A DNA stretch of 64,000 bases from Clostridium sp. Marseille-Q2269 (lineage in GTDB: Bacteria; Bacillota; Clostridia; Clostridiales; Clostridiaceae), in NCBI RefSeq assembly GCF_943736985.1, contig NZ_CALSFS010000006.1, forward strand, positions 124,001 through 188,000, in the 5' to 3' direction. A program made the translations under genes and the position numbers. The notes under the pieces are model-generated. The model did no database searches and had not been told where the DNA came from. It saw only the letters and a list, made by a program, of their open reading frames with translations. This document shows, piece after piece, positions 1 to 39,472 of this stretch. Within the stretch, counting starts at the first letter, position 1. Every line of letters begins with the position of its first letter.

Positions 1-2398
<2,398 letters not shown>

Positions 2399-5034: not shown

Positions 5035-6396
5035 ATGATGGTTAAAGTAACTAAGTCTTCATATAATCACTGGCTTCAAAATATATCAAGTCCTAACTTG
5101 TATAAAGATTTGTTTCCATATGATAAAATACCCAAGGTAACTTTTAATGATATACAGGTGCCTATGGATTTACCAGACAATATATGGATTACAGATACAA
5201 CATTTAGAGATGGACAGCAATCAATGCCACCATATACTACAGAGCAAATAGTAAAAATATATGATTATCTTCACAAATTAGATAATGGATCTGGCATAAT
5301 TAAACAAACAGAGTTTTTCTTATATTCACAGAAAGATAGAAAAGCAGCAGAAATATGTTTAAATAAAGGGTATGAATTCCCTGAAATTACATCCTGGATA
5401 AGAGCAAATAAGGAAGATTTTAAATTGGTTAAGGAAATGGGAATAAAAGAAACTGGTATGCTTATGTCTTGCTCAGATTATCATATATTTAAAAAACTTA
5501 ATACTACTAGAGAAAATGCTATGAATATGTATTTGGAAATTGCTGAGGAAGCTTTAGCTAATGGTATTGTTCCAAGGTGTCATTTAGAAGATATAACAAG
5601 GGCAGATTTTTATGGATTTGTAGTTCCTTTTGTAAATAAGTTAATGGAGCTTTCAAGAAAAGCTAATATTTCTGTTAAAATAAGAGCTTGTGATACTTTG
5701 GGATTAGCAGTACCTTATAGTGGTGCTTCACTTCCAAGGAGCGTTCAAGGAATTATTCATGGACTTAAGTATTGTTGTGATATTCCTTCTGAAAGAATAG
5801 AGTGGCATGGACATAATGATTTTTATGGAGTAGTAGCTAATGCTTCTACATCATGGCTTTATGGATGTTCATCTGTAAATACTTCTCTTTTGGGTATAGG
5901 AGAAAGAACAGGAAATTGTCCATTAGAGGCTATGATTATAGAATATGCACAATTGAAGGGGAATACGGCCAATATGAATTTGCATGTTATAAACGAAATA
6001 GCAGAATATTTTGAGAGAGAAATGAAGTATAACATACCTCCTAGAGCACCCTTTATTGGAAGTGAATTTAATGTTACAAGGGCTGGCATTCATGCAGATG
6101 GAATATTAAAAAATGAAGAAATATATAATATTTTCAATACAGAAAAAATTTTAGATAGACCAGTTGTTGTTGCAGTAAATCAATATTCAGGATTGGCTGG
6201 AATTGCGGCATGGATAAATACTTATTTCAAATTAAAAGGTGAAAATAAGATAGATAAAAAAGATGAAAGAATCTTTGCTATAAAAGAATGGGTAGATAAT
6301 CAATATGAAAATGGCAGAACAACTATAATAGGAAATAATGAATTAGAGATTATAGTGAAACAACTTATACCAGAATTGTTTCAAAGAGCCAGCTAA
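5035..6396 (+). CDS. Citrate (Re)-synthase, homocitrate/isopropylmalate synthase family
   Basis: This 453-residue protein has the alpha-isopropylmalate/homocitrate synthase TIM-barrel fold. The DTTFRDGQQ motif lies near residue 53, the catalytic metal site HGHND near 262, and the GIGERTGNCPLE block near 296. It lacks the long leucine-type regulatory C-terminus. It is followed directly by aconitase and isocitrate dehydrogenase genes, the context of the experimentally established Re-citrate synthase of Clostridium kluyveri. I therefore infer that it condenses acetyl-CoA and oxaloacetate to citrate, not homocitrate. No normal (Si) citrate synthase gene is seen in the window. AGGGGG at 5025-5030 is 4 nt from this ATG and 7 nt from the next ATG at 5038, so 5038 may be the true start. 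Confidence 0.85.
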   Translation: MMVKVTKSSYNHWLQNISSPNLYKDLFPYDKIPKVTFNDIQVPMDLPDNIWITDTTFRDGQQSMPPYTTEQIVKIYDYLHKLDNGSGIIKQTEFFLYSQKDRKAAEICLNKGYEFPEITSWIRANKEDFKLVKEMGIKETGMLMSCSDYHIFKKLNTTRENAMNMYLEIAEEALANGIVPRCHLEDITRADFYGFVVPFVNKLMELSRKANISVKIRACDTLGLAVPYSGASLPRSVQGIIHGLKYCCDIPSERIEWHGHNDFYGVVANASTSWLYGCSSVNTSLLGIGERTGNCPLEAMIIEYAQLKGNTANMNLHVINEIAEYFEREMKYNIPPRAPFIGSEFNVTRAGIHADGILKNEEIYNIFNTEKILDRPVVVAVNQYSGLAGIAAWINTYFKLKGENKIDKKDERIFAIKEWVDNQYENGRTTIIGNNELEIIVKQLIPELFQRAS

Positions 6397-6571
6397 TTGT
6401 TAATGTATACTTATAAAAAACGGTCTATAGAAAATATAATTAAATGAAATATAGAACACAATTTTAAAAAGTATATCAGTATTAAGGAAGAAAAAATAAG
6501 TTAGAAGATATAAATAAAAATCAGTTATATAAATAAAATATAGAAATACAAATTGATTGGGGGAATAACCT

Positions 6572-8488
6572 TTGGGTTTAACTTTAACAGAGAAAATAAT
6601 TAAATCTCATTTAATAAAAGGAAGTATGGTTAAAGGACAAGAGATTGCAATTAAAATAGATAATACATTAACTCAAGATTCTACTGGAACCATGGCTTAT
6701 CTTCAGTTTGAAGCATTGGGTATAGATAGAGTAAAAACTAAAAGATCTGTAGCCTATATAGATCATAATATGTTACAGTCAGGGCCAGAAAATGCTGATG
6801 ACCATTTATATATACAAACTGTTGCTAAAAAGCATGGAATTTATTTTTCAAAGCCGGGTAACGGTATATGTCATCAGGTTAATTTAGAAAGGTTTGGTGT
6901 TCCAGGAGAAACTTTATTAGGCTCTGATAGCCATACTCCAACGGGAGGTGGAATAGGAATGCTAGCAATAGGGGCCGGTGGGCTAGATGTAGCAGTGGCT
7001 ATGGCTGGTGGAGAATATTATATAAATATGCCTAAAGTAGTTAAGGTGAATTTAACAGGAGAATTAAGACCTTTTGTATCTGCAAAGGATGTTATATTAG
7101 AACTTTTAAGAAGATTATCTGTAAAAGGTGGAGTGGGAAAAATATTTGAATATGTAGGAGAAGGAGTAGAAACTCTTACGGTTCCAGAGCGAGCAACTAT
7201 AACTAATATGGGAGCGGAATTAGGTGCTACAACATCAATATTCCCATCAGATAATATTACTAGAGAGTTTTTAAGGGCTCAAGAAAGAGAAGAAGATTAT
7301 AAGTATTTAGTAGCAGATGAAGATGCCATTTATGATGAAGAAGTAGAAATAAATTTATCAGAGTTAAAGCCTTTAGCAGCTTGCCCCCACAGTCCTGATA
7401 ATGTGGTTCCTGTATCAAAACTTAAAAGTATAAAGGTTAACCAAGTTGCTATAGGTAGCTGTACAAATTCTTCTTATACAGATATGTTAAGAACAGCTAG
7501 TATATTAAAGGGAAAAACTATATCAGAAAATGTATCTTTGGTTATAGCTCCAGGGTCTAAACAAGTTTTAAATATGATGGCTGACAACGGAGCTTTGACA
7601 AATCTAGGTATGGCAGGAGCAAGAATATTAGAATGTGCCTGTGGGCCATGCATAGGAATGGGTCAATCTCCTTGCACAGATGCGGTATCTTTAAGAACTT
7701 TCAATAGAAATTTTCAAGGGAGATCTGGAACTAAATCAGCTAATGTATATTTGGTAAGTCCAGAAGTAGCAGCCGTTTCAGCATTAACAGGATATATAAC
7801 AGACCCTACAGAATTAGATACTTTTGAAGATATAAAAATGCCTAATAAATTTTTGATTAATGATAATTTAATAGTGCCACCAGCAAAAGAGGGAGAACAT
7901 ATAGAGGTTAAGAGAGGCCCTAATATAAAGCCTTTCCCTAAATCAGAAGCATTAAAAGAATTAGTAGTGGGAAAGGTGTTAACTAAGGTAGAAGATAATA
8001 TTACAACAGATCATATAATGCCATCTAACGCTAAACTTTTACCTTATAGATCTAATGTTCCATATTTATCAAACTTCTGCTTAACTCCTTGTGATGAAAA
8101 ATTCCCTGAAAAAGCAAAGAAAAATGGTGGAGGTATAATAGTGGCAGGTACAAATTATGGACAAGGTTCTAGTAGAGAACATGCAGCTTTAGCCCCTTTA
8201 TATTTAGGAATAAAAGCTGTTTTAGCAAAATCTTTTGCTAGAATTCATAAAGCAAACCTAATAAATAATGGTATATTACCTTTAGTTTTTCAATGTGAGG
8301 AAGATTATAACTCTATTGATGAAATGGATGAGTTAATTATAGAAGACACATTAAGTCAGGTGGAAACAGGAAACATAGAAGTAATAAATAAAACTAAAAA
8401 TATAAAATACAAAACTTTATTGGAATCAACAGGCAGACAAAAGAACATGATCTTAAATGGAGGATTATTAAACCTGATAAAAAAATAA
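6572..8488 (+). CDS. acnA: Aconitate hydratase
   Basis: This 638-residue aconitase isomerises citrate to isocitrate through a [4Fe-4S] cluster. The cluster-binding cysteines appear as GSCTNSSYTD (near residue 295) and CACGPCIGMG (near 361). GSDSHTPTGGGIG (near 117) and the C-terminal swivel-domain motif YGQGSSREHAAL (near 528) are also present. It is a short aconitase (about 640 residues), as in other clostridia, not the 900-residue form. Translation starts at TTG, set by GGGGGA seven bases upstream; no ATG fits. It lies between citrate (Re)-synthase and isocitrate dehydrogenase and only 15 nt from the latter. Confidence 0.93.
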   Translation: MGLTLTEKIIKSHLIKGSMVKGQEIAIKIDNTLTQDSTGTMAYLQFEALGIDRVKTKRSVAYIDHNMLQSGPENADDHLYIQTVAKKHGIYFSKPGNGICHQVNLERFGVPGETLLGSDSHTPTGGGIGMLAIGAGGLDVAVAMAGGEYYINMPKVVKVNLTGELRPFVSAKDVILELLRRLSVKGGVGKIFEYVGEGVETLTVPERATITNMGAELGATTSIFPSDNITREFLRAQEREEDYKYLVADEDAIYDEEVEINLSELKPLAACPHSPDNVVPVSKLKSIKVNQVAIGSCTNSSYTDMLRTASILKGKTISENVSLVIAPGSKQVLNMMADNGALTNLGMAGARILECACGPCIGMGQSPCTDAVSLRTFNRNFQGRSGTKSANVYLVSPEVAAVSALTGYITDPTELDTFEDIKMPNKFLINDNLIVPPAKEGEHIEVKRGPNIKPFPKSEALKELVVGKVLTKVEDNITTDHIMPSNAKLLPYRSNVPYLSNFCLTPCDEKFPEKAKKNGGGIIVAGTNYGQGSSREHAALAPLYLGIKAVLAKSFARIHKANLINNGILPLVFQCEEDYNSIDEMDELIIEDTLSQVETGNIEVINKTKNIKYKTLLESTGRQKNMILNGGLLNLIKK

Positions 8489-8503
8489 ATATTTGGAGGG
8501 TAC

Positions 8504-9505
8504 ATGGTGAGATATAATATAACTTTAATACCAGGAGATGGTATAGGACCAGAAGTAACTGAAGCTGCAAGAAAAATTATAGATGCAACAGGAGTAGATA
8601 TTAATTGGCATATAGTAGAAGCGGGAGAAAAAGTTTTAGATGAATATAAAACTCCTCTTCCAGAATATGTTTTAGATAGTATAAAAGAGAATAAAGTAGC
8701 ACTTAAAGGACCTATAACTACTCCTATAGGAAAGGGATTTAGAAGCGTAAATGTTACATTAAGAAAAAGTTTAAATTTATATGCCAATATAAGACCTGTA
8801 AAAAGTTATAAAGGAATAAAATCTAGATATGATAATGTAGATTTAATAATTGTAAGAGAAAATACAGAAGATTTGTATGCAGGCATTGAGCATATGATTG
8901 GTGATGATGTTGCAGAAAGTATAAAAGTAATTACTAAAAAAGCCAGTGATAGAATAGTAGAATATGCTTTTGATATAGCAAGAAAAGAAAATAGAAATAA
9001 AGTTACTGCAGTGCATAAAGCCAATATAATGAAGTTATCTGATGGATTATTTTTAAAATGTTCAAGAGAGGTTGGAAGTAAAAATAGTGATATAGAATTT
9101 GATGATGTAATAGTAGATGCTATGGCTATGAAATTAGTTTTAAATCCAGAAAAATATGATGTTTTAGTAATGCCTAATCTATATGGAGATATTTTATCAG
9201 ATATGGCAGCTGGTTTAGTTGGTGGATTGGGATTACTTCCTGGAGCTAATATAGGTGATAAAGGAGCGGTATTTGAATCAGCTCATGGTGCAGCTCCTGA
9301 TATTGCAGGACAAAATAAAGCTAATCCAACAGCATGCATATTAAGTGGAGTTATGATGCTTAAATATCTTGGAGAAAATGAAAAAGCTAAAAAAATTGAA
9401 GATTCAATAGAGAAAGTATTTAGAGAAGGTAAATATTTTACAGAAGACTTAGGTGGAACTTCTACCACAGAAGAGTTTACAAAAGCAGTTATAAGGAATC
9501 TTTAA
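8504..9505 (+). CDS. icd: Isocitrate dehydrogenase (isopropylmalate dehydrogenase superfamily)
   Basis: This 333-residue beta-decarboxylating dehydrogenase converts isocitrate to 2-oxoglutarate and carbon dioxide. It opens with IPGDGIGPEV. The substrate site sequence FRSVNVTLRKSLNLYANIR (residues 86-104) and the metal/cofactor block MPNLYGDILSDMAAGLVGG (near 224) are intact. Its length is that of the short NAD-type enzyme. It follows aconitase by 15 nt with a strong GGAGGG site. With the two upstream genes it completes the oxidative route from oxaloacetate to 2-oxoglutarate, so glutamate synthesis is the likely purpose. NAD versus NADP use was not determined. Confidence 0.88.
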   Translation: MVRYNITLIPGDGIGPEVTEAARKIIDATGVDINWHIVEAGEKVLDEYKTPLPEYVLDSIKENKVALKGPITTPIGKGFRSVNVTLRKSLNLYANIRPVKSYKGIKSRYDNVDLIIVRENTEDLYAGIEHMIGDDVAESIKVITKKASDRIVEYAFDIARKENRNKVTAVHKANIMKLSDGLFLKCSREVGSKNSDIEFDDVIVDAMAMKLVLNPEKYDVLVMPNLYGDILSDMAAGLVGGLGLLPGANIGDKGAVFESAHGAAPDIAGQNKANPTACILSGVMMLKYLGENEKAKKIEDSIEKVFREGKYFTEDLGGTSTTEEFTKAVIRNL

Positions 9506-22418: not shown

Positions 22419-23027
22419 TTAAGATTTGTTTTTTTGCATAAAGAAAGGAATACTTTCTGTAAAAAAATTAACAAAAGTGTCTTTAAATCTTTCATCTTCT
22501 TGCTTTAAAACTCCAAGAGAATATTGCATTGCAACACCATCTAGAGCAGCTACTAAAATAGAAGCAAGGCTTTTTTTATAGTATTCATTTTCAATACCAA
22601 ATGCAAAAAAGTACATTTCTGATACTTTTGTAATAATTTCATTATAATCTTGTTTTAGGCTGTCATTAAGCTGGCCACCTTTTGATAATACATAACCTAT
22701 TAATAGAATTAGAAGACGTTGTTCATCAATCTTTGACATACGTTCTCTAACTTTAATACTAATTTCATCTAACATACTTTCAGAACTTTTAATATTGCTA
22801 TTTTCATCTTTTTCAGATAGCTTTTGGGCAAAGTACATAGCTTCTTTTACCGCATGATAAAACAATTCGTCCTTATTCTTAAAATGATGATAGATAGCAC
22901 CAGTAGTTAGCCCAGCAGCAGAGGCTATTTCCCTTAAACTTGTTTTTTCAAATCCTTTTTCTGTGAATTTACTAATTGCAGATTCTAAAATATGCTGTTT
23001 TTTTTCATTGTGATTATTAGCGATCAT
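22419..23027 (-). CDS. TetR/AcrR family transcriptional regulator
   Basis: This 202-residue repressor-type regulator has the N-terminal helix-turn-helix KTSLREIASAAGLTTGAIYH followed by HFKNKDELF, the signature of TetR. The C-terminal ligand domain is not diagnostic. The start at 23027 is chosen because GAGGTGA lies 6 bases before that ATG; an in-frame ATG at 23045 has no site. It is divergent from hypB, and a perfect inverted repeat lies between them (23190-23209). It therefore probably represses the hypB unit and itself; the inducing ligand is unknown. Confidence 0.85.
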   Translation of the reverse strand: MIANNHNEKKQHILESAISKFTEKGFEKTSLREIASAAGLTTGAIYHHFKNKDELFYHAVKEAMYFAQKLSEKDENSNIKSSESMLDEISIKVRERMSKIDEQRLLILLIGYVLSKGGQLNDSLKQDYNEIITKVSEMYFFAFGIENEYYKKSLASILVAALDGVAMQYSLGVLKQEDERFKDTFVNFFTESIPFFMQKNKS

Positions 23028-23159
23028 ATTAGTCACCTCATTCATATGTAGTATAGCATATTTTTATAGAATTGGTGGTAAATAATTGAAGCATAAGGTT
23101 TTAAAAAATGTATGATTTTATGTTTTCAAAATATAATTATTATTCAGAATGTTAAAGCA

Positions 23160-23186
23160 TTGACAAAGTGTAATAGGTATTATAAT
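23160..23186 (+). promoter_or_regulatory. Probable promoter of the hypB unit
   Basis: TTGACA (23160-23165) and TATAAT (23181-23186) are both consensus hexamers, though the 15-base spacing is shorter than usual. The palindromic operator begins 4 bases downstream, which would block the polymerase. Confidence 0.55.
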
Positions 23187-23189
23187 ATA

Positions 23190-23209
23190 AACATAACAGT
23201 TGTTATGTT
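23190..23209 (+). promoter_or_regulatory. Palindromic operator, likely TetR binding site
   Basis: AACATAACA and TGTTATGTT are exact inverted copies around a 2-base centre (GT). The site overlaps the expected transcription start of hypB and lies in the divergent region upstream of the TetR gene. Confidence 0.65.
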
Positions 23210-23286
23210 ATATTATGGTATATATGTATATATCATTATTTTAATGAAATACAATTTAAATTATGTATAAAATGGGGGGGTATTAT

Positions 23287-23958
23287 ATGAACACATATAA
23301 AGTTTTAGAGATTAAGCAAAGTGTTTTCCAAAACAATGATCACCAAGCAGACTTACTTAGAGAAGACTTAAAAAAGCAAGGAGTATTTTTATTAAATCTT
23401 ATGTCATCACCCGGTTCAGGAAAAACAACAACTCTTCTAAGAACAATTAAGTCTTTAAAAGATGAAATGAATATTGGAGTATTAGAAGCTGATATTGATT
23501 CAGAAGTAGATGCACATAAGGTTTCACAGCCTGGTGTTAAAGTAATTCAATTGCACACTGGGGGGATGTGTCATCTTGATGCTGATATGACTAAACAAGG
23601 TTTGAAGGGGCTAGGTACTGAAAATATTGATTTTGCAGTATTGGAGAATGTAGGAAATTTAGTGTGTCCTGCAGAATTTGATACTGGTGCATCAAAAAAT
23701 GCTATGATTTTAAGTATACCAGAAGGAGACGACAAGCCTTTAAAATATCCTTTAATGTTTTCAATAGTTGATGTTCTTCTAATTAATAAGATAGATGCAA
23801 AGGATTATTTTGAATTTGATATAGAGGCAGTGGAAGAAAGAGCAAAAAGATTAAATCCTAATATCAAAGTTATTCCAATATCAGCTAAAACAGGAGAAGG
23901 TATGGATGAATGGTTTGATTGGATACGTAAAGAAGTAATGAATTGGAAGAAAAATTAA
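23287..23958 (+). CDS. hypB: Hydrogenase/nickel-enzyme maturation GTPase HypB
   Basis: This 223-residue SIMIBI-class GTPase delivers nickel to apo-enzymes together with HypA. Walker A SSPGSGKTT is near residue 40. The conserved intersubunit metal site GGMCHLDADM is near residue 95. ENVGNLVCPAEFD (near 120) and the base-recognition NKID (near 178) are intact. The N-terminal CXXCGC and His-rich nickel stores found in some HypB are absent. The ATG at 23287 is chosen because GGGGGG ends 6 bases upstream; the earlier in-frame start would precede that site. It heads a unit with an Fe-S flavoprotein and hypA, but no hydrogenase structural gene is present. Confidence 0.93.
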   Translation: MNTYKVLEIKQSVFQNNDHQADLLREDLKKQGVFLLNLMSSPGSGKTTTLLRTIKSLKDEMNIGVLEADIDSEVDAHKVSQPGVKVIQLHTGGMCHLDADMTKQGLKGLGTENIDFAVLENVGNLVCPAEFDTGASKNAMILSIPEGDDKPLKYPLMFSIVDVLLINKIDAKDYFEFDIEAVEERAKRLNPNIKVIPISAKTGEGMDEWFDWIRKEVMNWKKN

Positions 23959-24057
23959 TTGAAAATTTGTAATATTATTAATTAAACTTTTTATTTCTAT
24001 GATTTAATATCTATATATTTTATAGATTACACATAATTATTTTTAGGGGGATAATAT

Positions 24058-26736
24058 ATGATTAAGGAAAAAGTGCTTGATCTTGCAAATCATATAAGTA
24101 ATAAGAAGCGGGGATCAAAAAATGAGATTAAACCCACAGATCCAGAATATATGATTCTTGAGCCTGTTGTTACAAATGAAATGGCAGAAGTAGCACTTTG
24201 TATGAATATACGTAAGAAAGTTACAGCTAATGAACTGTCTATTTTATGTGGCAAAAGTGTAGAAGAAACAAAAAAACTTTTATTAGAGTTGGCAGATGCA
24301 GGAGTTTGCTTTGTAAATACAATCAATGGGGAAGATGTATTTTGGTATGATACATGGGTTCCCGGTATTATGGAAATGATGGTTAATAATAAAAATAATG
24401 TTAAGAAGTATCCTCAAATAGCCAGAGCTTTTGAAGCTTATGGAAGAGTAAGAGGCCCTAAAACATCAGGTAATTTCCCAGTAGGAGTAGGTCTTATGCG
24501 TGTTATTCCCATAGAGCATGCCATTTCAGGGGAAACTAGAAGAGCAAGTTATGAAGAAGTTTCAAAATATCTAACTGAAAATGAGATTTTTTCAGTTGCA
24601 GATTGTTCTTGTCGTACAGCGCGAGAAGCTATGGGAGAAGGTTGTGGGCACCTTAAGGAAGATATGTGTATTCAAATGGGACACGCTGCAGAGTATTATA
24701 TTCGTACAAAAAGAGGCAGGCAGATTACCCGTGAAGAAGCCTTTGAAATTATTAAAAGAGCAGAAGAAAACGGTTTAATGCACCAAATACCAAACTTAGA
24801 TGGATCAGGTAAAACTCATGCTATCTGCAATTGTTGTGGATGCTCTTGTCTTTCATTAAGAACTGCTAGTATGTTTATTAATGCTGATATGGTACGTTCA
24901 AATTATGTTTCTAAAGTTGATACAGATAAATGTGTTGCTTGTGGTGAGTGTGTTGAAAATTGTCCTGTTAATGCACTACAACTAGGGCAAAAATTATGCT
25001 CTAAGACTCCAGTTACCACTGAGATAAAAAGAACTGAAACTCCACGGGATACAGAGTGGGGGCCAGACAAATGGAATACTGATTATAGAATAAATAGGAA
25101 AAATGTAGTTGATACTGGCACCAGTCCCTGCAAAACTCAATGTCCAGCACATATTGCAGTTCAGGGTTATATTAAGCTTGCAGCACAAGAAAAATATAAA
25201 GAAGCTCTTGAACTTATAAAACATGAAAATCCATTTCCAGCTGTATGTGGACGTATTTGTCCAAGAAAATGTGAGTCAGAATGTACAAGAGGAGATATTG
25301 ACAACCCAGTTGCTATCGATGAAATTAAAAAATTTATTGCAGAGCAAGATCTAAATGTTAAATATCGTTATGTGCCTAAACATAAACATGAATATGGTAA
25401 AAAAATTGGAATTATAGGAGCTGGACCTTCAGGCCTTAGCTGTGCTTATTTTTTAGCTATTGATGGATATAAAGTAACAGTTTTTGAGAAACAGGAAGTT
25501 CTTGGTGGTATGTTAACTTTAGGAATTCCTTCCTTTAGACTTGAAAAAGAAGTTGTAAATGCAGAAATTCATATATTAAAAGAATTAGGTGTGGAATTTA
25601 GAACAGGCATTGAAGTTGGTAAAGACGTGACTCTTAATGAATTAAGAGATGAAGATTTTAAAGCTTTTTATATTTCCATTGGTGCTTCTATAGGAAGGAA
25701 ACTTGGCATAGAAGGTGAAGATGCTGAAAATGTTATTACAGGTATAGATTTTATGCGAGATGTAAACTTAGGTAAGGAGTTGAAACTTAAAGGCAATGTA
25801 ATTGTAATAGGAGGAGGCAATGTTGCTATAGATGTTGCAAGAACAGCAACTAGGCTAGGTGATACAAAAGTTAAAATGTACTGCCTAGAGAATCGTGATC
25901 AAATGCCTGCTCTTCCAGAAGAAATTGAAGAAGCTTTATCAGAAGATATTAAAATTAATAATTCATGGGGACCAAAAAGAATTATTCTTAAAAATAATCG
26001 TGCTACAGGTATAGAATTTAAAAAATGTATTTCTGTATTTAATGAAGAAGGAAAATTTAACCCAATATATGATGAGGACAATACCATAATAGTTAAAGCA
26101 GATACCATATTGCTTTCAATAGGTCAAGGAATAGATTGGGGTAAACTTTTAGTAGATAGTAAAATTGAATTTAATAGAAATAACACCATTAAAGCAAATT
26201 CAGTTACACTACAAACAGCTGAGAAAGATATTTTTGCCGGTGGGGATGCACTAACAGGTCCTAAATTTGCTATTGATGCCATTGCTTTAGGTAAAGAGGG
26301 AGCGATTTCAATTCATCGTTATGTTCAACCAGGGCAAAGTCTAATTATAGGTCGTGATAGGAAAGAATATCAGGCCTTAGATAAAGAAAATATAGAGATT
26401 GAAGGATATGATGGCACTCCAAGACAAAGCGTAGGTCATGTAAATGGGGATAAATCAAAAAAAACCTTTAAAGATTTACGAGGTACTTTTACTAAAGAAC
26501 AAGTAAAAAAAGAAACAGAACGTTGTCTTAGTTGTGGAGCCACTGTTGTAGATGAATTTTTGTGTGTAGGATGTGGTCAATGTACAACTAAATGCAAGTT
26601 TGATGCCATTTCACTTGTCAGAAAATATGATGGTGAAGGTGTGGCATACGAAGATTTAAAACCAGTAGTTGTAAAACAAGTTCTTAAACGTAAAGTAAAG
26701 ATAACTGCTAAAAAGGTAAAAACATTATTTAAATAA
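24058..26736 (+). CDS. Large Fe-S flavoprotein, NAD(P)H-dependent oxidoreductase of the GltD type with extra domains
   Basis: This is an 892-residue fusion. Residues 1-110 look like a winged-helix domain; 180-260 carry Cys clusters (CSCR, then CNCCGCSC). A ferredoxin motif CVACGECVENCPV starts at 292. Residues 350-415 hold the Fe-S region of glutamate synthase small chain/dihydropyrimidine dehydrogenase type (PCKTQCPAH, CGRICPRKCESEC). The FAD site IGIIGAGPSGLSCAYF is near 450 and the NAD(P)H site VIVIGGGNVAIDVART near 580. A final CLSCG plus CVGCGQCTTKCKF begins at 823. Many [4Fe-4S] clusters and electron flow from NAD(P)H through FAD follow from these motifs; the acceptor is unknown. It sits between hypB and hypA in one TetR-controlled unit. 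It is not glutamate synthase: no large subunit is present. Confidence 0.85.
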   Translation: MIKEKVLDLANHISNKKRGSKNEIKPTDPEYMILEPVVTNEMAEVALCMNIRKKVTANELSILCGKSVEETKKLLLELADAGVCFVNTINGEDVFWYDTWVPGIMEMMVNNKNNVKKYPQIARAFEAYGRVRGPKTSGNFPVGVGLMRVIPIEHAISGETRRASYEEVSKYLTENEIFSVADCSCRTAREAMGEGCGHLKEDMCIQMGHAAEYYIRTKRGRQITREEAFEIIKRAEENGLMHQIPNLDGSGKTHAICNCCGCSCLSLRTASMFINADMVRSNYVSKVDTDKCVACGECVENCPVNALQLGQKLCSKTPVTTEIKRTETPRDTEWGPDKWNTDYRINRKNVVDTGTSPCKTQCPAHIAVQGYIKLAAQEKYKEALELIKHENPFPAVCGRICPRKCESECTRGDIDNPVAIDEIKKFIAEQDLNVKYRYVPKHKHEYGKKIGIIGAGPSGLSCAYFLAIDGYKVTVFEKQEVLGGMLTLGIPSFRLEKEVVNAEIHILKELGVEFRTGIEVGKDVTLNELRDEDFKAFYISIGASIGRKLGIEGEDAENVITGIDFMRDVNLGKELKLKGNVIVIGGGNVAIDVARTATRLGDTKVKMYCLENRDQMPALPEEIEEALSEDIKINNSWGPKRIILKNNRATGIEFKKCISVFNEEGKFNPIYDEDNTIIVKADTILLSIGQGIDWGKLLVDSKIEFNRNNTIKANSVTLQTAEKDIFAGGDALTGPKFAIDAIALGKEGAISIHRYVQPGQSLIIGRDRKEYQALDKENIEIEGYDGTPRQSVGHVNGDKSKKTFKDLRGTFTKEQVKKETERCLSCGATVVDEFLCVGCGQCTTKCKFDAISLVRKYDGEGVAYEDLKPVVVKQVLKRKVKITAKKVKTLFK

Positions 26737-26786
26737 TGTTATACAAATAATGTAGTTTAAAGTTTAACTATAGGGGGTGTGTTTTG

Positions 26787-27128
26787 TTGCATGAACTTGG
26801 AGTAATTCTCGAAGTAGTAAAAACTGTAGAGGATATTGCTATAAAAAACCATCTAACAAAAATCGATACTATTGTCTTGCAAATTGGAGAGTTATCTTCC
26901 ATGATTCCTAAATATATTAAAGCCTGTTATCCCGCTGCGGTAGACGGCACTGCAATGGAATTTACAAAGTTGAAAATTGATGTATTGCCAGCAAATGCTT
27001 TATGTAAACACTGTAATAAAGTTTATAATATCTTAAAAAATAGGGAAGGATGTCCTTATTGTGAAGGTAAAGATTGGGACTTATTATGTGGCAAAGAATT
27101 TTTAATTAAAGAAATAGTAGCCTATTAA
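26787..27128 (+). CDS. hypA: Nickel-insertion protein HypA
   Basis: This 113-residue metallochaperone binds nickel through its N-terminal MHE and zinc through two CXXC motifs. Both appear here: MHELGVI at the start and CKHCNKVY...GCPYCEG near residues 72-95. The start codon is TTG 26787, which gives the family-typical Met-His-Glu; a TTG one codon earlier would displace the nickel-binding histidine. GGGGGTG is 7 bases upstream. It lies 50 bases after the flavoprotein gene and would act with HypB. Confidence 0.92.
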   Translation: MHELGVILEVVKTVEDIAIKNHLTKIDTIVLQIGELSSMIPKYIKACYPAAVDGTAMEFTKLKIDVLPANALCKHCNKVYNILKNREGCPYCEGKDWDLLCGKEFLIKEIVAY

Positions 27129-27167
27129 ATAATTTTTAAATTTTTAGAGGTGAAAAGGGGGAGAAAA

Positions 27168-28154
27168 ATGTTTGAATTTAACTATGCTGAAGGAGCAACT
27201 ATATTTAGTTCATTGGGGATATGGTTTATTGTTTTTGCATCACTGTTTTTATTCAACGAATTTGCAAGAAAGAAAAAATGGATAGGATTTTTTAGCTTTG
27301 TTATTTTACCTATTATTTTAACAATAACTTGGTTTACTGTTTTAAAGGATGAGACTTATACAGATTGGTTTCATTTAGCAAAAGTTTATTCTGCAACAGC
27401 AGGATGTATTGGTTTTTGGTTTATTCGACATTTTGAAAAGAAAGATAAAGCTACTGGTGAAGTTGTTTGGAGATTAGCAGATAATAAAATTGCTTTATGT
27501 TTTCCACCATTAATTCTAGCTATTAATATTTTAGAAGCAGTTGGAAGAGATTTTGAAGTGGGATCTTTATATTGGATGATGAACTCAGGATCTATTGAAG
27601 GTGAAATAGTAGGGGTTATGGGTGGCCCTTGGAATTATATAAATGCAATTGCCGGCATATTAAATATTATTACAATAACAGGGTGGTTTGGAATAGTAAT
27701 TAGAAAAGAAACTAAGAAGGATAAAAGTAGGGATATGCTATGGCCAGATATGCTTTGGTTTTGGATTATTGCATATGATGCATGGAATTTTGTATACACT
27801 TATAACTGTATACCTACTCATTCTTGGTATGCAGGTATTGCATTACTTTTGGCTCCAACCCTTTGCGCTTTTACCGTTGGAAAAGGTGCTTGGTTACAAC
27901 ACAGAGCCCAAACTTTAGCAATATGGTGTATGTTCGCTCAAACTTTTCCAAGTTTCCAGCATAAAGGAATATTTTTAATTAAATCAACCTATAATCCTAC
28001 CATTTATACAATTTTTAGTGTAATAGCTCTTGGAATTAACATAGCTGTATTTATTTATATGATATATAAAGTAAAGAAAACAAAGAGAAATCCATATAAG
28101 AAAGAACTTTATAGTGATCTTGATAAATTTAAAGAAGTTAAAATTATGGCTTAA
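27168..28154 (+). CDS. DUF5692-type multispanning membrane protein
   Basis: This 328-residue membrane protein has about eight hydrophobic helices, for example SSLGIWFIVFASLFLFNEFA near the start and a last one FSVIALGINIAVFIYMIY. The loops carry many aromatic residues (MLWPDMLWFWIIAYDAWNF) and a short HSWYAG motif. I recognise it tentatively as DUF5692, a family without known function. The ATG at 27168 follows AGGGGGAG; an in-frame GTG at 27150 is less well placed. It is the last gene of the hypB unit, 39 bases after hypA and ending at a strong terminator. A link to nickel or electron transfer is only positional. Confidence 0.75.
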   Translation: MFEFNYAEGATIFSSLGIWFIVFASLFLFNEFARKKKWIGFFSFVILPIILTITWFTVLKDETYTDWFHLAKVYSATAGCIGFWFIRHFEKKDKATGEVVWRLADNKIALCFPPLILAINILEAVGRDFEVGSLYWMMNSGSIEGEIVGVMGGPWNYINAIAGILNIITITGWFGIVIRKETKKDKSRDMLWPDMLWFWIIAYDAWNFVYTYNCIPTHSWYAGIALLLAPTLCAFTVGKGAWLQHRAQTLAIWCMFAQTFPSFQHKGIFLIKSTYNPTIYTIFSVIALGINIAVFIYMIYKVKKTKRNPYKKELYSDLDKFKEVKIMA

Positions 28155-28172
28155 AATAAAATATATTTACAT

Positions 28173-28207
28173 TAAAAAATGTAGGCTAAAAACCTACATT
28201 TTTTATA
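28173..28207 (+). terminator. Terminator of the hypB-hypA unit
   Basis: AAAAAATGTAGG (28173-28184) and CCTACATTTTTT (28192-28203) form a perfect 12-bp stem with built-in T-run. Confidence 0.88.
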
Positions 28208-28513: not shown

Positions 28514-29178
28514 ATGAAAAATATTTTAATTATAGAAGATGATATAAATTTAAGAAAGTATATGAAAGATTTTTTAACAAGTTATGAGTATAATGTTGAA
28601 CTTGTAACGGATTTTGATAAAGTTAAGGAGAAGGCTTTAGAGTCCTCTATAGATCTAATACTTTTAGATATAAATCTTCCTAAATTTGATGGGTTTTATT
28701 TTTTAAAGGTAATAAGAAAAAAAGTTTCTACACCTATAATTATAATTTCCTCAAGAAGTGAAGAATAGGAGCAAATTAGAGGAATAGATTTGGGAGCAGA
28801 TGATTATATAGCTAAGCCCTTTGGAATTTAATTACTTATTGCAAAGATAAATGCAGTACTTAGAAGGGTTAATTCTGGAGAAACAAAGATTATAAAAGTA
28901 AATGAAATGAATCTTATATGTGAAAGTATGCAGCTTAAAATAAATGAGCAAATAATAGAGCTTTCAAGAAATGAGTACAAGCTATTAAAAATTTTTATGA
29001 GGAATTATAGAAAGGTTGTTCCACGAGAAGTACTTTTAGAGGAACTTTGGGATGATGATGTATTTGTAGATGATAACACATTAACTGTAAACATAACTAG
29101 ACTAAAAAAAGATTAAAGGAAATTAATGCTGAAGTTTCAATTATAACTAAAAGAGGTGTGGGATATACACTTCAGTAG
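28514..29178 (+). pseudogene. OmpR-family response regulator, broken by two stops and one frameshift
   Basis: The frame encodes a receiver domain (LIIEDDINLRKYM, phosphorylation site LLLDINLPKFDGF, later DDYIAKPFG) and a winged-helix DNA-binding domain (LSRNEYKLLKIFMRN, then LWDDDVFVDDNTLTVNITRL). An in-frame TAG at 28766 and a TAA at about 28829 interrupt the receiver domain. Loss of one A from a poly-A run near 29103-29110 then shifts the last 25 codons (ending KRGVGYTLQ). GGAGGA still precedes the ATG. No sensor kinase gene follows, so the whole two-component system has probably been lost. Confidence 0.85.
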
Positions 29179-29267
29179 AAAATTTTCCATGGAAACAGCT
29201 GTATTGTATTTTGTAAATAAAGTTTATAATATATATAGACTTAATAGTATTTAAAACCAGGTGAAAT

Positions 29268-37998: not shown

Positions 37999-39472
37999 TT
38001 ATAACTTTAGTTATGCAAAATAAAAATCTAAATTGGTAAAACTACCAAAAAATAAATATGGCATACTTTCTCTCACTGTGTTATATAAAAGTTACCATAC
38101 AAATATAAACACAGGAGGTAAAAAGTATGCCAAGTACTAATATTGTATCCATTAATAATGAACTTTACAATTACTTAAATGATGTAAATTATGGAATGTC
38201 TAAGCCTCAATTTAATCATTTAACCAATATTGCCAATGGATTAATTAATTTACCTGGCACTAAAACTTTATCTGAAATTGCTAAAAATGTGTTGCATTCA
38301 AAAGACAAAAGTTGTATTTATAGATTTTTAAGCCATTCTAAATGGGACCATAGTCTTCTGAACAACAATAGAATTAGCTATTTAAACTTTTTCCTTGAGC
38401 ATAATATTAAACCTAAATCCGTAGGGTTTTTGATTATAGATGATACTGTAAATCCCAAGAAATCAGCAAAGAAAATGCAAGGATTATCTTATAATTACTC
38501 TCATACAGAAGACAAAAATATTTGGTCACATTGTGTGGTTACTTCAAATTTTGTTGTAAATGATAAATCTATTCCTTTACAATATAAACCTTACTATAAA
38601 AAGGAATTTTGCAAAGATTTAAATAAAAATTTTAAATCTAAGATTGATATTGCAAAAAATTTTATAACTTCTTTTAAAACTCCATCTAATTGTGAAAAAA
38701 TGTATTGTCTTATGGATTCATGGTATACAAATAATAATTTAATAGAAGCATCTTTAGCAAAGGGCTACCACCTAATAGGAGCAATTAAATCTAACAGAAA
38801 AATATCTCCATTAGGAATTTCAATGCAGTTATCAAAATTTGAAAAATTCCTTAGTCCTAACACCTTAGACCTTGTTACAGTTGAAGGTAAGGACTATAGA
38901 GTATATACCTATGAAGGTAATGTTTCTAAATTCCCTTATGCTAAAATACTTATTTGCTATGAAGTCACCCATGATGGATTCAAGAACCCAGTATATTTGC
39001 TGTCTACCGACATCTTATTAAATGCAGAAACTATAATTAAATATTATTCTCACAGATGGACTATAGAAACTTCATATAAATATTTAAAAAGCAATTTAGC
39101 TTTTGATAAATATAGAATGCGTAGCATTTTGTCTATAGAACGATATTTTCTTATAGTATTCTTAATCTATAATTTTTTAGAATTATTTAGAGTTAGTTCC
39201 AACCACGGAGATTTTAAGACTATAGGTGAAACTCAGAAATATCTAAACAGCCTGACGGCAAAAGCACTTGTGTGCTTTATATATGAAAAATCAAAACAGA
39301 ATATTGAACTAAAAGATATTTTATGTGAGCTAAAAATCCCTTAGAGTTTTTAAAAATTCATCATATAAAATTGGGCAAGTGTTTTCATATTATATGGATA
39401 ATATATCATAATAAGTATAATATAGTCTCAATAGGTAATTTAGCTTTTGAAATTGCCTAACTAAAGTTATAA
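37999..39472 (+). mobile_element. IS element, IS4/IS701-like, with 18-bp terminal inverted repeats
   Basis: TTATAACTTTAGTTATGC (37999-38016) and GCCTAACTAAAGTTATAA (39455-39472) are inverted copies with one mismatch. Weaker similarity continues inward (CTAAATT in both). They frame one intact transposase gene. The element is about 1.47 kb. I cannot see a convincing target-site duplication directly outside the repeats. It is inserted between the patatin gene and a small unknown gene. Confidence 0.85.
38127..39344 (+). CDS. DDE transposase of an IS4/IS701-like element
   Basis: This 405-residue transposase has the RNase H-like DDE fold. The first catalytic Asp is in FLIIDDTVNPKKSAKK (near residue 99), the second in YCLMDSWYTNNNLIEA (near 196), and the Glu in YYSHRWTIETSYKYLK (near 315). 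This last stretch is the YREK-like signature of IS4-type enzymes. The frame is complete, and AGGAGGT precedes the ATG, so it may still be active. It lies inside the inverted repeats at 37999 and 39472. Confidence 0.92.
   Translation: MPSTNIVSINNELYNYLNDVNYGMSKPQFNHLTNIANGLINLPGTKTLSEIAKNVLHSKDKSCIYRFLSHSKWDHSLLNNNRISYLNFFLEHNIKPKSVGFLIIDDTVNPKKSAKKMQGLSYNYSHTEDKNIWSHCVVTSNFVVNDKSIPLQYKPYYKKEFCKDLNKNFKSKIDIAKNFITSFKTPSNCEKMYCLMDSWYTNNNLIEASLAKGYHLIGAIKSNRKISPLGISMQLSKFEKFLSPNTLDLVTVEGKDYRVYTYEGNVSKFPYAKILICYEVTHDGFKNPVYLLSTDILLNAETIIKYYSHRWTIETSYKYLKSNLAFDKYRMRSILSIERYFLIVFLIYNFLELFRVSSNHGDFKTIGETQKYLNSLTAKALVCFIYEKSKQNIELKDILCELKIP

Follow-up and report, generated by a model that had tools for sequence, protein, structure and literature searches.

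Nickel enzymes are known in only a small number of kinds, and the presence of HypA and HypB is usually taken to indicate a hydrogenase or urease. Here we analyse a stretch of 64,000 nucleotides from Clostridium sp. Marseille-Q2269 (contig NZ_CALSFS010000006.1, positions 124,001 to 188,000; below, the window, whose own numbering is used throughout), in which, at 22419-28154, a divergent gene for a TetR-family repressor is followed by four genes on the same strand: hypB, the gene for an Fe-S flavoprotein of 892 residues (892 codons) that we label Fox, hypA, and a gene for a DUF5692 membrane protein. The nearest described counterpart is IsrA, a putative isoprene reductase of 901 residues from Acetobacterium wieringae (PMC10134865, 2023). 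According to the relevant passages of that paper, isoprene induces in A. wieringae ISORED-2 not only IsrA but also one HypA, HypB and a ferredoxin, and the genome of this strain contains neither a [NiFe]-hydrogenase nor hypCDEF; its authors propose that IsrA receives nickel from HypA and HypB, with six cysteines as the possible site. The same passages give values of 0.73 for HypA, 0.56 for HypB, 0.40 for DUF5692 and 0.21 for TetR among the neighbours of 988 IsrA homologues, and report that the cluster II homologues of Acetobacterium have a hypothetical protein and a regulator of the TetR type beside them, joined in two species by an oleate hydratase.

The arrangement found here is thus not new. 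It fits the 'clade 9' relatives of IsrA, a described but poorly understood family, and we take the locus as a further member because the neighbourhood data excerpted from PMC10134865 list HypA, HypB, TetR and DUF5692. As far as the published description goes, Fox and IsrA share a length of about 900 residues, two CxC motifs in the N-terminal domain, a Fer4 domain, a Fer4_20/Pyr_redox_2 module and a C-terminal Fer4 stretch, and in both cases hypA and hypB adjoin the oxidoreductase gene; note that this likeness is one of described domains and neighbours, not of position in a tree with IsrA. The isr operon in the strict sense, in which two hypA genes, hypB and a gene for a 4Fe-4S ferredoxin surround isrA, is a gene set that does not occur here: the isr operon is described with two hypA and a ferredoxin and without DUF5692, whereas the present locus has a single hypA, no ferredoxin, and both TetR and DUF5692.

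The association of Fox with HypA proved to be close to constant across genomes. In an even sample of 291 genomes from the class of C. sulfidigenes (Clostridia), Fox is present in 22 (E 1e-80 or better; a partial match at 4e-22 in G245 was left uncounted), and HypA adjoins the Fox gene in all 22, in one of them (G298) as an incomplete HypA at a contig end. The hydrogenase maturation gene hypD is present in ten of these genomes and absent from the other twelve (genome completeness not stated), and in each of the twelve the HypA beside Fox is the sole strong HypA. At a threshold of E<1e-20, picked after viewing the match list, HypA was found in 44 of the 291 genomes, namely the 22 with Fox and 22 others that each carry hypD, and in none that lacks both. 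At the curated cut-off the number rises to 55, of which 22 have Fox, 23 hypD only and ten neither; the ten are weaker matches (E 1e-18 to 1e-6), and nine of them start no earlier than profile position 4, beyond the nickel-binding His2. DUF5692 follows the same pattern, with 15 of the 22 Fox genomes against 3 of the 269 others (two partial matches and a marginal one), 18 in all. Fisher's test, in which kinship is ignored, gives a p value of 3e-17 for the pairing of Fox and DUF5692, and one of 3e-21 for that of Fox and HypA. Among 131 genomes of the Clostridiaceae DUF5692 occurs in 39 of 45 with Fox and in 7 of 86 others (p 8e-20); in some genomes of this family (G354, G369 and G433) DUF5692 is strong, yet Fox gives no match at E<=1e-60.

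We also approached the linkage from DUF5692, in a set that is more biased than the class sample. A scan of GTDB contigs yielded 319 relatives; the loci of the best 80 were fetched, many of them ending at contig ends. Fox is present in 50 of these 80 loci (49 according to clustering), and clustering assigned a HypB to 46 and a HypA to 43. Gene order varies, DUF5692 being last in loci of the type seen in the window and first in many others, and so do the regulators, for 12 loci have a TetR like that of the window, 25 a TetR_C_8 protein and 19 a GntR/FCD protein (the latter two names derive from Pfam on one member each). For 44 of the 80 loci the genome was tested, and every one of the 44 contains HypA as well as Fox, the latter at E 2e-84 or better. 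Thirteen of them show no Fox in the fetched DUF5692 stretch, two of which (L039 and L063) end at a contig end, and all thirteen carry it elsewhere. The first-pass annotation of this DNA had suggested joint action of the genes in a self-contained module for metal or electron transfer, and the conserved co-occurrence in these 44 genomes and in the Clostridiaceae supports that view. Its concern that another hyp set might already use these HypA and HypB is not borne out in the relatives tested, given that hypD is absent from 26 of the 44 and present in 18.

Several loci depart from the common layout. DUF5692 without Fox in the fetched stretch is seen in L009-L018, L022, L026, L029, L031, L037, L045, L064, L077, L078 and others; in several such stretches it lies directly 3' of a TetR_C_8 regulator, and in the tested genomes Fox sits elsewhere. 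In C. sulfidigenes (L001, 7935-8000) there is no hypA between Fox and DUF5692, and a second Fox with HypA lies elsewhere (G001, contig C28). In a metagenome-assembled genome of Acetobacterium (L052) the order is TetR_C_8, DUF5692, oleate hydratase and Fox, and no HypB or HypA was found in the 3.3 kb 3' of Fox. Two Fox proteins of about 940 residues (L084 and L089), which have Ser196, Glu198 and an altered stretch at 260-262, lack adjoining HypA, HypB and DUF5692, and their genomes hold a second copy of Fox.

HypA and HypB of these loci form lineages of their own. A tree of 59 Fox-locus HypA proteins (58 encoded within 1.5 kb of a Fox open reading frame (ORF), plus that of the window) and 20 encoded away from Fox in genomes with hypD (14 at most about 5 kb from hypD, one some 10 kb off and five elsewhere) separates the two groups by one branch with a support of 100/99. 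The alignment is short (113 columns) and the tool warned of long branches, but the split was nonetheless recovered in 99% of the bootstrap trees. For HypB a single branch, again with 100/99, separates 60 Fox-linked proteins, two of which (L046 and L069) are on contigs that end before any Fox, from 18 of hypD-bearing genomes. Seven genomes in the HypA tree contain both kinds of HypA, and the HypA outside the Fox locus, available from 11 of the 18 hypD-bearing genomes, falls into a different clade, which again speaks against use of the Fox-linked proteins by another hyp set in the relatives. The clades separate even where one genome has both kinds. The split is the strongest evidence that the Fox-linked HypA and HypB would be dedicated paralogues and not borrowed hydrogenase parts. 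In the tree the HypA proteins of L110, L114, L115 and L120, whose genes have neither Fox nor hypD next to them, fall into one group.

In their functional residues both proteins agree with the nickel chaperone pair of [NiFe]-hydrogenase and urease maturation. His2, Glu3 and the four zinc cysteines in two CxxC motifs are present in 29 of 29 aligned HypA rows; among the 59 Fox-linked proteins the cysteines are kept in all, and His2 and Glu3 in 58, with one gap there. Residues of their own are Lys108 (58/59) and Glu109 (57/59), positions at which other HypA proteins have mixed residues. The hypA product scores 98.5 bits against PF01155, above the cut-off of 28.9, and thus belongs to the HypA family, but at 72.3 bits it stays under the cut-off of 88.1 for the hydrogenase HypA equivalog TIGR00100 of NCBIfam. 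The hypB product matches CobW/HypB of Pfam (E 3e-20), reaches the equivalog level of TIGR00073 with 250.9 bits (cut-off 121.2), and has in its G domain the CH...C pair, a motif as given in the relevant section of PMC10134865. The difference from hydrogenase and urease maturation lies in the separate clades and in the surroundings, for no hypC, D, E or F and no hydrogenase was seen by eye beside the run. Likewise, inspection by eye of the ORFs of at least 120 residues revealed no gene for a hydrogenase, urease or carbon monoxide dehydrogenase in the window, in agreement with the first reading; profile scans in the window covered the five cluster genes and an ORF at 28514, and other ORFs were judged by eye.

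Fox consists of an N-terminal Cys/His domain (about residues 1-290), a Fer4 domain and a flavin adenine dinucleotide (FAD)/NAD(P)H module at residues 354-850. By homology the latter resembles NfnABC and StnABC, and its combination with Fer4_20 is shared with these enzymes and with the dihydropyrimidine dehydrogenase family. What sets Fox apart from NfnABC and StnABC is the additional N-terminal domain with cysteines of its own: none of the 50 rows listed covers it or begins before residue 291, which is not proof of a new fold. Within this domain the motifs C183xC185 and C257xC259 are invariant in 47 aligned Fox rows. His242 and Glu236, located between the conserved cysteines, are kept in 61 of 61 Fox proteins (47 and 14) and in none of six stand-alone proteins without a linked HypA. 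These HypA-independent relatives (L090-L095, 417-431 residues) combine the N-terminal domain of Fox with further cysteine motifs of the Fer4 kind and have no adjoining HypA. The closest relatives of the Fox protein itself are all from Clostridium, with identities of 88% (sp. UBA1056), 86% (C. sulfidigenes) and 82% (C. mobile). A comparison with plasmid records gave 166 matches, of which a single one, from Subdoligranulum with 50% identity, had a query coverage of at least 80%; the module is therefore not a typical plasmid load.

The region between the divergent TetR gene and hypB carries a palindromic operator (Table 1). Its core, ATAACANNTGTTAT at 23193-23206, occurs once in the 64-kb window against an expectation of 0.04, and the palindrome recurs 5' of hypB in seven relatives, perfect at 9+2+9 in L001, L002, L006 and L007 and shorter in L003, L004 and L008. 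The operator put forward in the first-pass annotation is thus more than a chance palindrome. The divergent placement of the TetR gene is retained in L001-L004 and L006-L008. Promoter-type consensus matches are common by chance (47 in the region, 35.6 expected); in L001, L002 and L006 inspection by eye shows elements like the hypB promoter in the corresponding position. At the far end an inverted repeat with a run of T is the likely terminator of the operon, and the terminator scan raised no flag at 28175-28203. The genes from hypB to DUF5692 would probably be transcribed together. Gene order and lengths were as first annotated, and small corrections concern the start codons of hypA, DUF5692 and hypB; for hypA a start at TTG 26787 is most likely on sequence grounds because it results in M-H-E-L with the nickel-binding His2.

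Table 1. Features of the Fox operon in the window
Feature	Position	Strand	Remarks
TetR-family repressor	22419..23045	-	PF00440 TetR_N E 9.2e-17; divergent from operon
Sigma-70-like promoter TTGACA-17-TAATAT for hypB onward	23160..23188	+	10/12 consensus matches
Palindromic operator AACATAACA-GT-TGTTATGTT, 9+2+9	23190..23209	.	just 3' of the -10 element; core rarity and conservation
HypB-type GTPase, Fox-linked clade	23287..23958	+	ATG 23287 the probable start; ORF open from 23263
Fox, 892 residues, IsrA-like Fe-S flavoprotein	24058..26736	+	Pfam Pyr_redox_2, Fer4_20 and Fer4, E 7e-27 and weaker
Codons C183 to C264 of Fox	24604..24849	+	six kept cysteines C183, C185, C204, C257, C259, C264; Fox-only E236 and H242 in between
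HypA-type nickel metallochaperone, Fox-linked clade	26787..27128	+	PF01155 E 3.1e-28; TTG start, M-H-E
DUF5692 multi-helix membrane protein	27168..28154	+	PF18948 E 2.6e-117; ATG 27168 the most likely start; ORF open from 27150
Perfect 11-bp inverted repeat with T run, likely operon terminator	28175..28203	+	pattern match, 0 in 100 shuffles

Neighbouring genes in the relatives offer clues to the metal and to the substrate. A set of CbiM-PDGLE, CbiQ and an ABC ATPase lies 3' of DUF5692 in L044, L048, L060 and, after an ORF of 80 residues, in L001, and in L027 CbiM is close by on the opposite strand. This type of importer is one for nickel or cobalt; NCBIfam leans to a cobalt name at scores far below its cut-offs. 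A membrane protein of the DsbD_2 type (about 230 residues) is encoded between hypA and DUF5692 in L003 (7261-7962), L004, L007 and L008, and in L003 it contains HTVIGVDH. This H-x5-D-H motif initially suggested a nickel permease, but NCBIfam gave the protein no name and that reading was dropped.

For DUF5692 the structure model (predicted local distance difference test score 88.7) places nine predicted helices of at least 17 residues, seven of them clearly hydrophobic, and of 24 charged or amide residues that are invariant over 74 sequences 19 are inside predicted helices. With these features DUF5692 looks more like an enzyme than like a simple channel, and the idea that it might be an isomerase is drawn entirely from them. 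No match was found among solved structures. Directly 3' of DUF5692 an oleate hydratase is encoded in eight of the 80 loci, five from Clostridium and three from Acetobacterium (942 bits for the one member tested, against an NCBIfam cut-off of 567); it is followed by hypB in six of them and by Fox in L052, and L063 ends there.

In our estimate it is an even call that we have here a reductase operon, induced by its substrate and equipped with a pair of its own for nickel insertion, in which HypA and HypB load nickel into Fox and Fox reduces a conjugated C=C bond of a hydrophobic substrate. TetR would bind the operator 3' of the hypB promoter and be released by that substrate. The GTPase HypB would, together with HypA, hand nickel to Fox, their constant companion in the genomes surveyed. 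Electrons from NAD(P)H would enter Fox at the FAD module, as its homology to Nfn suggests, and pass through Fe-S clusters to a site in the N-terminal domain, where a nickel or nickel-iron-sulphur centre may be held by the six invariant cysteines, with His242 and Glu236 near in sequence. By analogy with IsrA this site would reduce one double bond of a conjugated pair, and DUF5692 may be its partner in the membrane, where it would handle or prepare that substrate.

A number of observations weigh against this proposal. All six cysteines of Fox are also kept in the six stand-alone proteins without adjoining HypA, so that the six-cysteine site alone is no marker of nickel, and the idea that the site itself marks the metal was set aside. 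Full-length Fox without HypA within 1.5 kb occurs in L001, L052, L084 and L089 (L079 is cut off), and the CbiM-type importer may carry cobalt. A. woodii, described in excerpts of PMC10134865 as having a cluster II homologue in such an operon, there with an oleate hydratase (locus L035 is from a metagenome-assembled genome of this species), did not reduce isoprene, and isoprene reduction is for this reason not expected here either. As a genomic partner oleate hydratase is weak: in the class sample it is found in 7 of 22 Fox genomes and 22 of 269 others (p 0.003, uncorrected for genome size and kinship), in the Clostridiaceae in 33 of 45 and 47 of 86, respectively (p 0.04), and its association with DUF5692 in that family has a p value of 0.09. 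With this weak enrichment it was discarded as a genome-wide marker and retained as in-operon evidence only.

Three other explanations have to be considered. HypA and HypB serve several enzymes in other bacteria, and they might act here as general nickel chaperones for a hydrogenase, a carbon monoxide dehydrogenase/acetyl-CoA synthase or a glyoxalase, their adjacency to Fox being incidental. The presence of hypD in ten of the 22 Fox genomes of the class sample and in 18 of the 44 genomes with DUF5692 would be in line with this, but the separate clades, the seven genomes with both kinds of HypA and the twelve hypD-less genomes in which the sole strong HypA lies beside Fox make it very unlikely. 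Fox might also be a nickel-free enzyme like NfnABC or StnABC, working by flavin-based electron bifurcation or as a transhydrogenase, with HypA giving zinc or assembly help only. The Nfn-like module itself would suit such a role, but no Nfn or Stn partner subunit is found among the five genes at 22419-28154 or among the recurrent neighbours that were annotated, a minority of all neighbours. HypA moreover retains its nickel residues His2 and Glu3, and in several relatives a nickel/cobalt importer joins the cluster; we consider this alternative unlikely, though less so than incidental adjacency.

The remaining alternative leaves the reductase in place and changes its substrate. Fox could reduce another hydrophobic or aromatic unsaturated compound, such as isoprene, diene hydrocarbons, terpenoids, pigments or plant and host compounds, with DUF5692 as a permease and fatty acids unrelated. 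The induction of IsrA by isoprene and the reduction of conjugated diene gases by strain Y, both as reported, agree with this, as does the weak genome-wide enrichment of oleate hydratase, and the differing regulator types (two of TetR and one of GntR/FCD) would fit several substrates. Against it stand the oleate hydratase within the operon in two genera and the enzyme-like invariant polar residues of DUF5692, which has no match among solved structures, neither of them decisive, and we regard it as a possibility of some substance if still on the unlikely side. Returning to the proposal of a nickel-loaded reductase, unsaturated fatty acids are the likeliest class of substrate. To name fatty acids as the substrate and DUF5692 as the isomerase acting on them is a bold guess, though one that can be tested. 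Reduction of diene gases by Acetobacterium points to conjugated dienes as the substrate class, and conjugated linoleate (CLA) is such a diene.

Taken further, the operon could be the long-missing genetic basis of anaerobic clostridial biohydrogenation of polyunsaturated fatty acids, with DUF5692 as the membrane isomerase that turns linoleate-type substrates into a conjugated diene and Fox as the CLA reductase. Fox would then represent a new class of nickel enzyme, supplied with the metal by HypA and HypB paralogues of its own; we rate this as decidedly unlikely as it stands. Reviews of 2025 and 2026 (PMC12254105 and PMC13365329) describe, in their relevant passages, that Butyrivibrio and Clostridium, including C. 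sporogenes, have linoleate isomerases bound to the membrane and show CLA reductase activity, and name no CLA reductase gene there; the passages of PMC4901502 and PMC11723137 add no gene. The parallel to the operon is that of a membrane-bound isomerase step followed by a CLA reductase step, in which one of the two double bonds of a conjugated diene is reduced, and it is a resemblance of logic, not of compared sequences. If this reading holds, genomes with DUF5692 and no Fox would represent strains that isomerise only. Among Butyrivibrio and Clostridium there are strains that convert linoleate to vaccenate, whereas B. fibrisolvens MDT-5 is one that stops at isomerisation. In the literature searched no printed link between the hypB-Fox-hypA-DUF5692 operon and fatty acid biohydrogenation was seen, and DUF5692 was named only in PMC10134865.

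Elsewhere in the window, 28514-29180 (+) holds the remnant of an OmpR-type response regulator, an 84-residue receiver ORF followed by similar sequence (by eye) with in-frame stops, which reads as a pseudogene. Judged by eye from their translations, consecutive genes at 5035-9505 (+) encode a citrate synthase-like protein, of the Re type by its look, an aconitase and an isocitrate dehydrogenase, and an ORF of 405 residues at 38127-39344 (+) resembles a transposase. The translation of an ORF at 1364-2020 (-) looks by eye like the reverse strand of ribosomal RNA, and an rRNA operon may open the window.

To the described family we add the counts of Fox-HypA linkage, the dedicated clades of HypA and HypB, the importer and oleate hydratase neighbours, the Fox-only residues His242 and Glu236, and a testable fatty acid hypothesis. 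The conserved operator, the dedicated chaperone clades and the two Fox-only residues make the claim of a nickel-dependent reductase directly testable. If Fox is the client, HypA and HypB without hypD in Clostridia would mark a further nickel enzyme, one that saturates C=C bonds. If in addition the substrate is a conjugated fatty acid, the operon would supply genes for biohydrogenation in rumen and gut, a process for which the relevant review passages leave the reductase gene unnamed.

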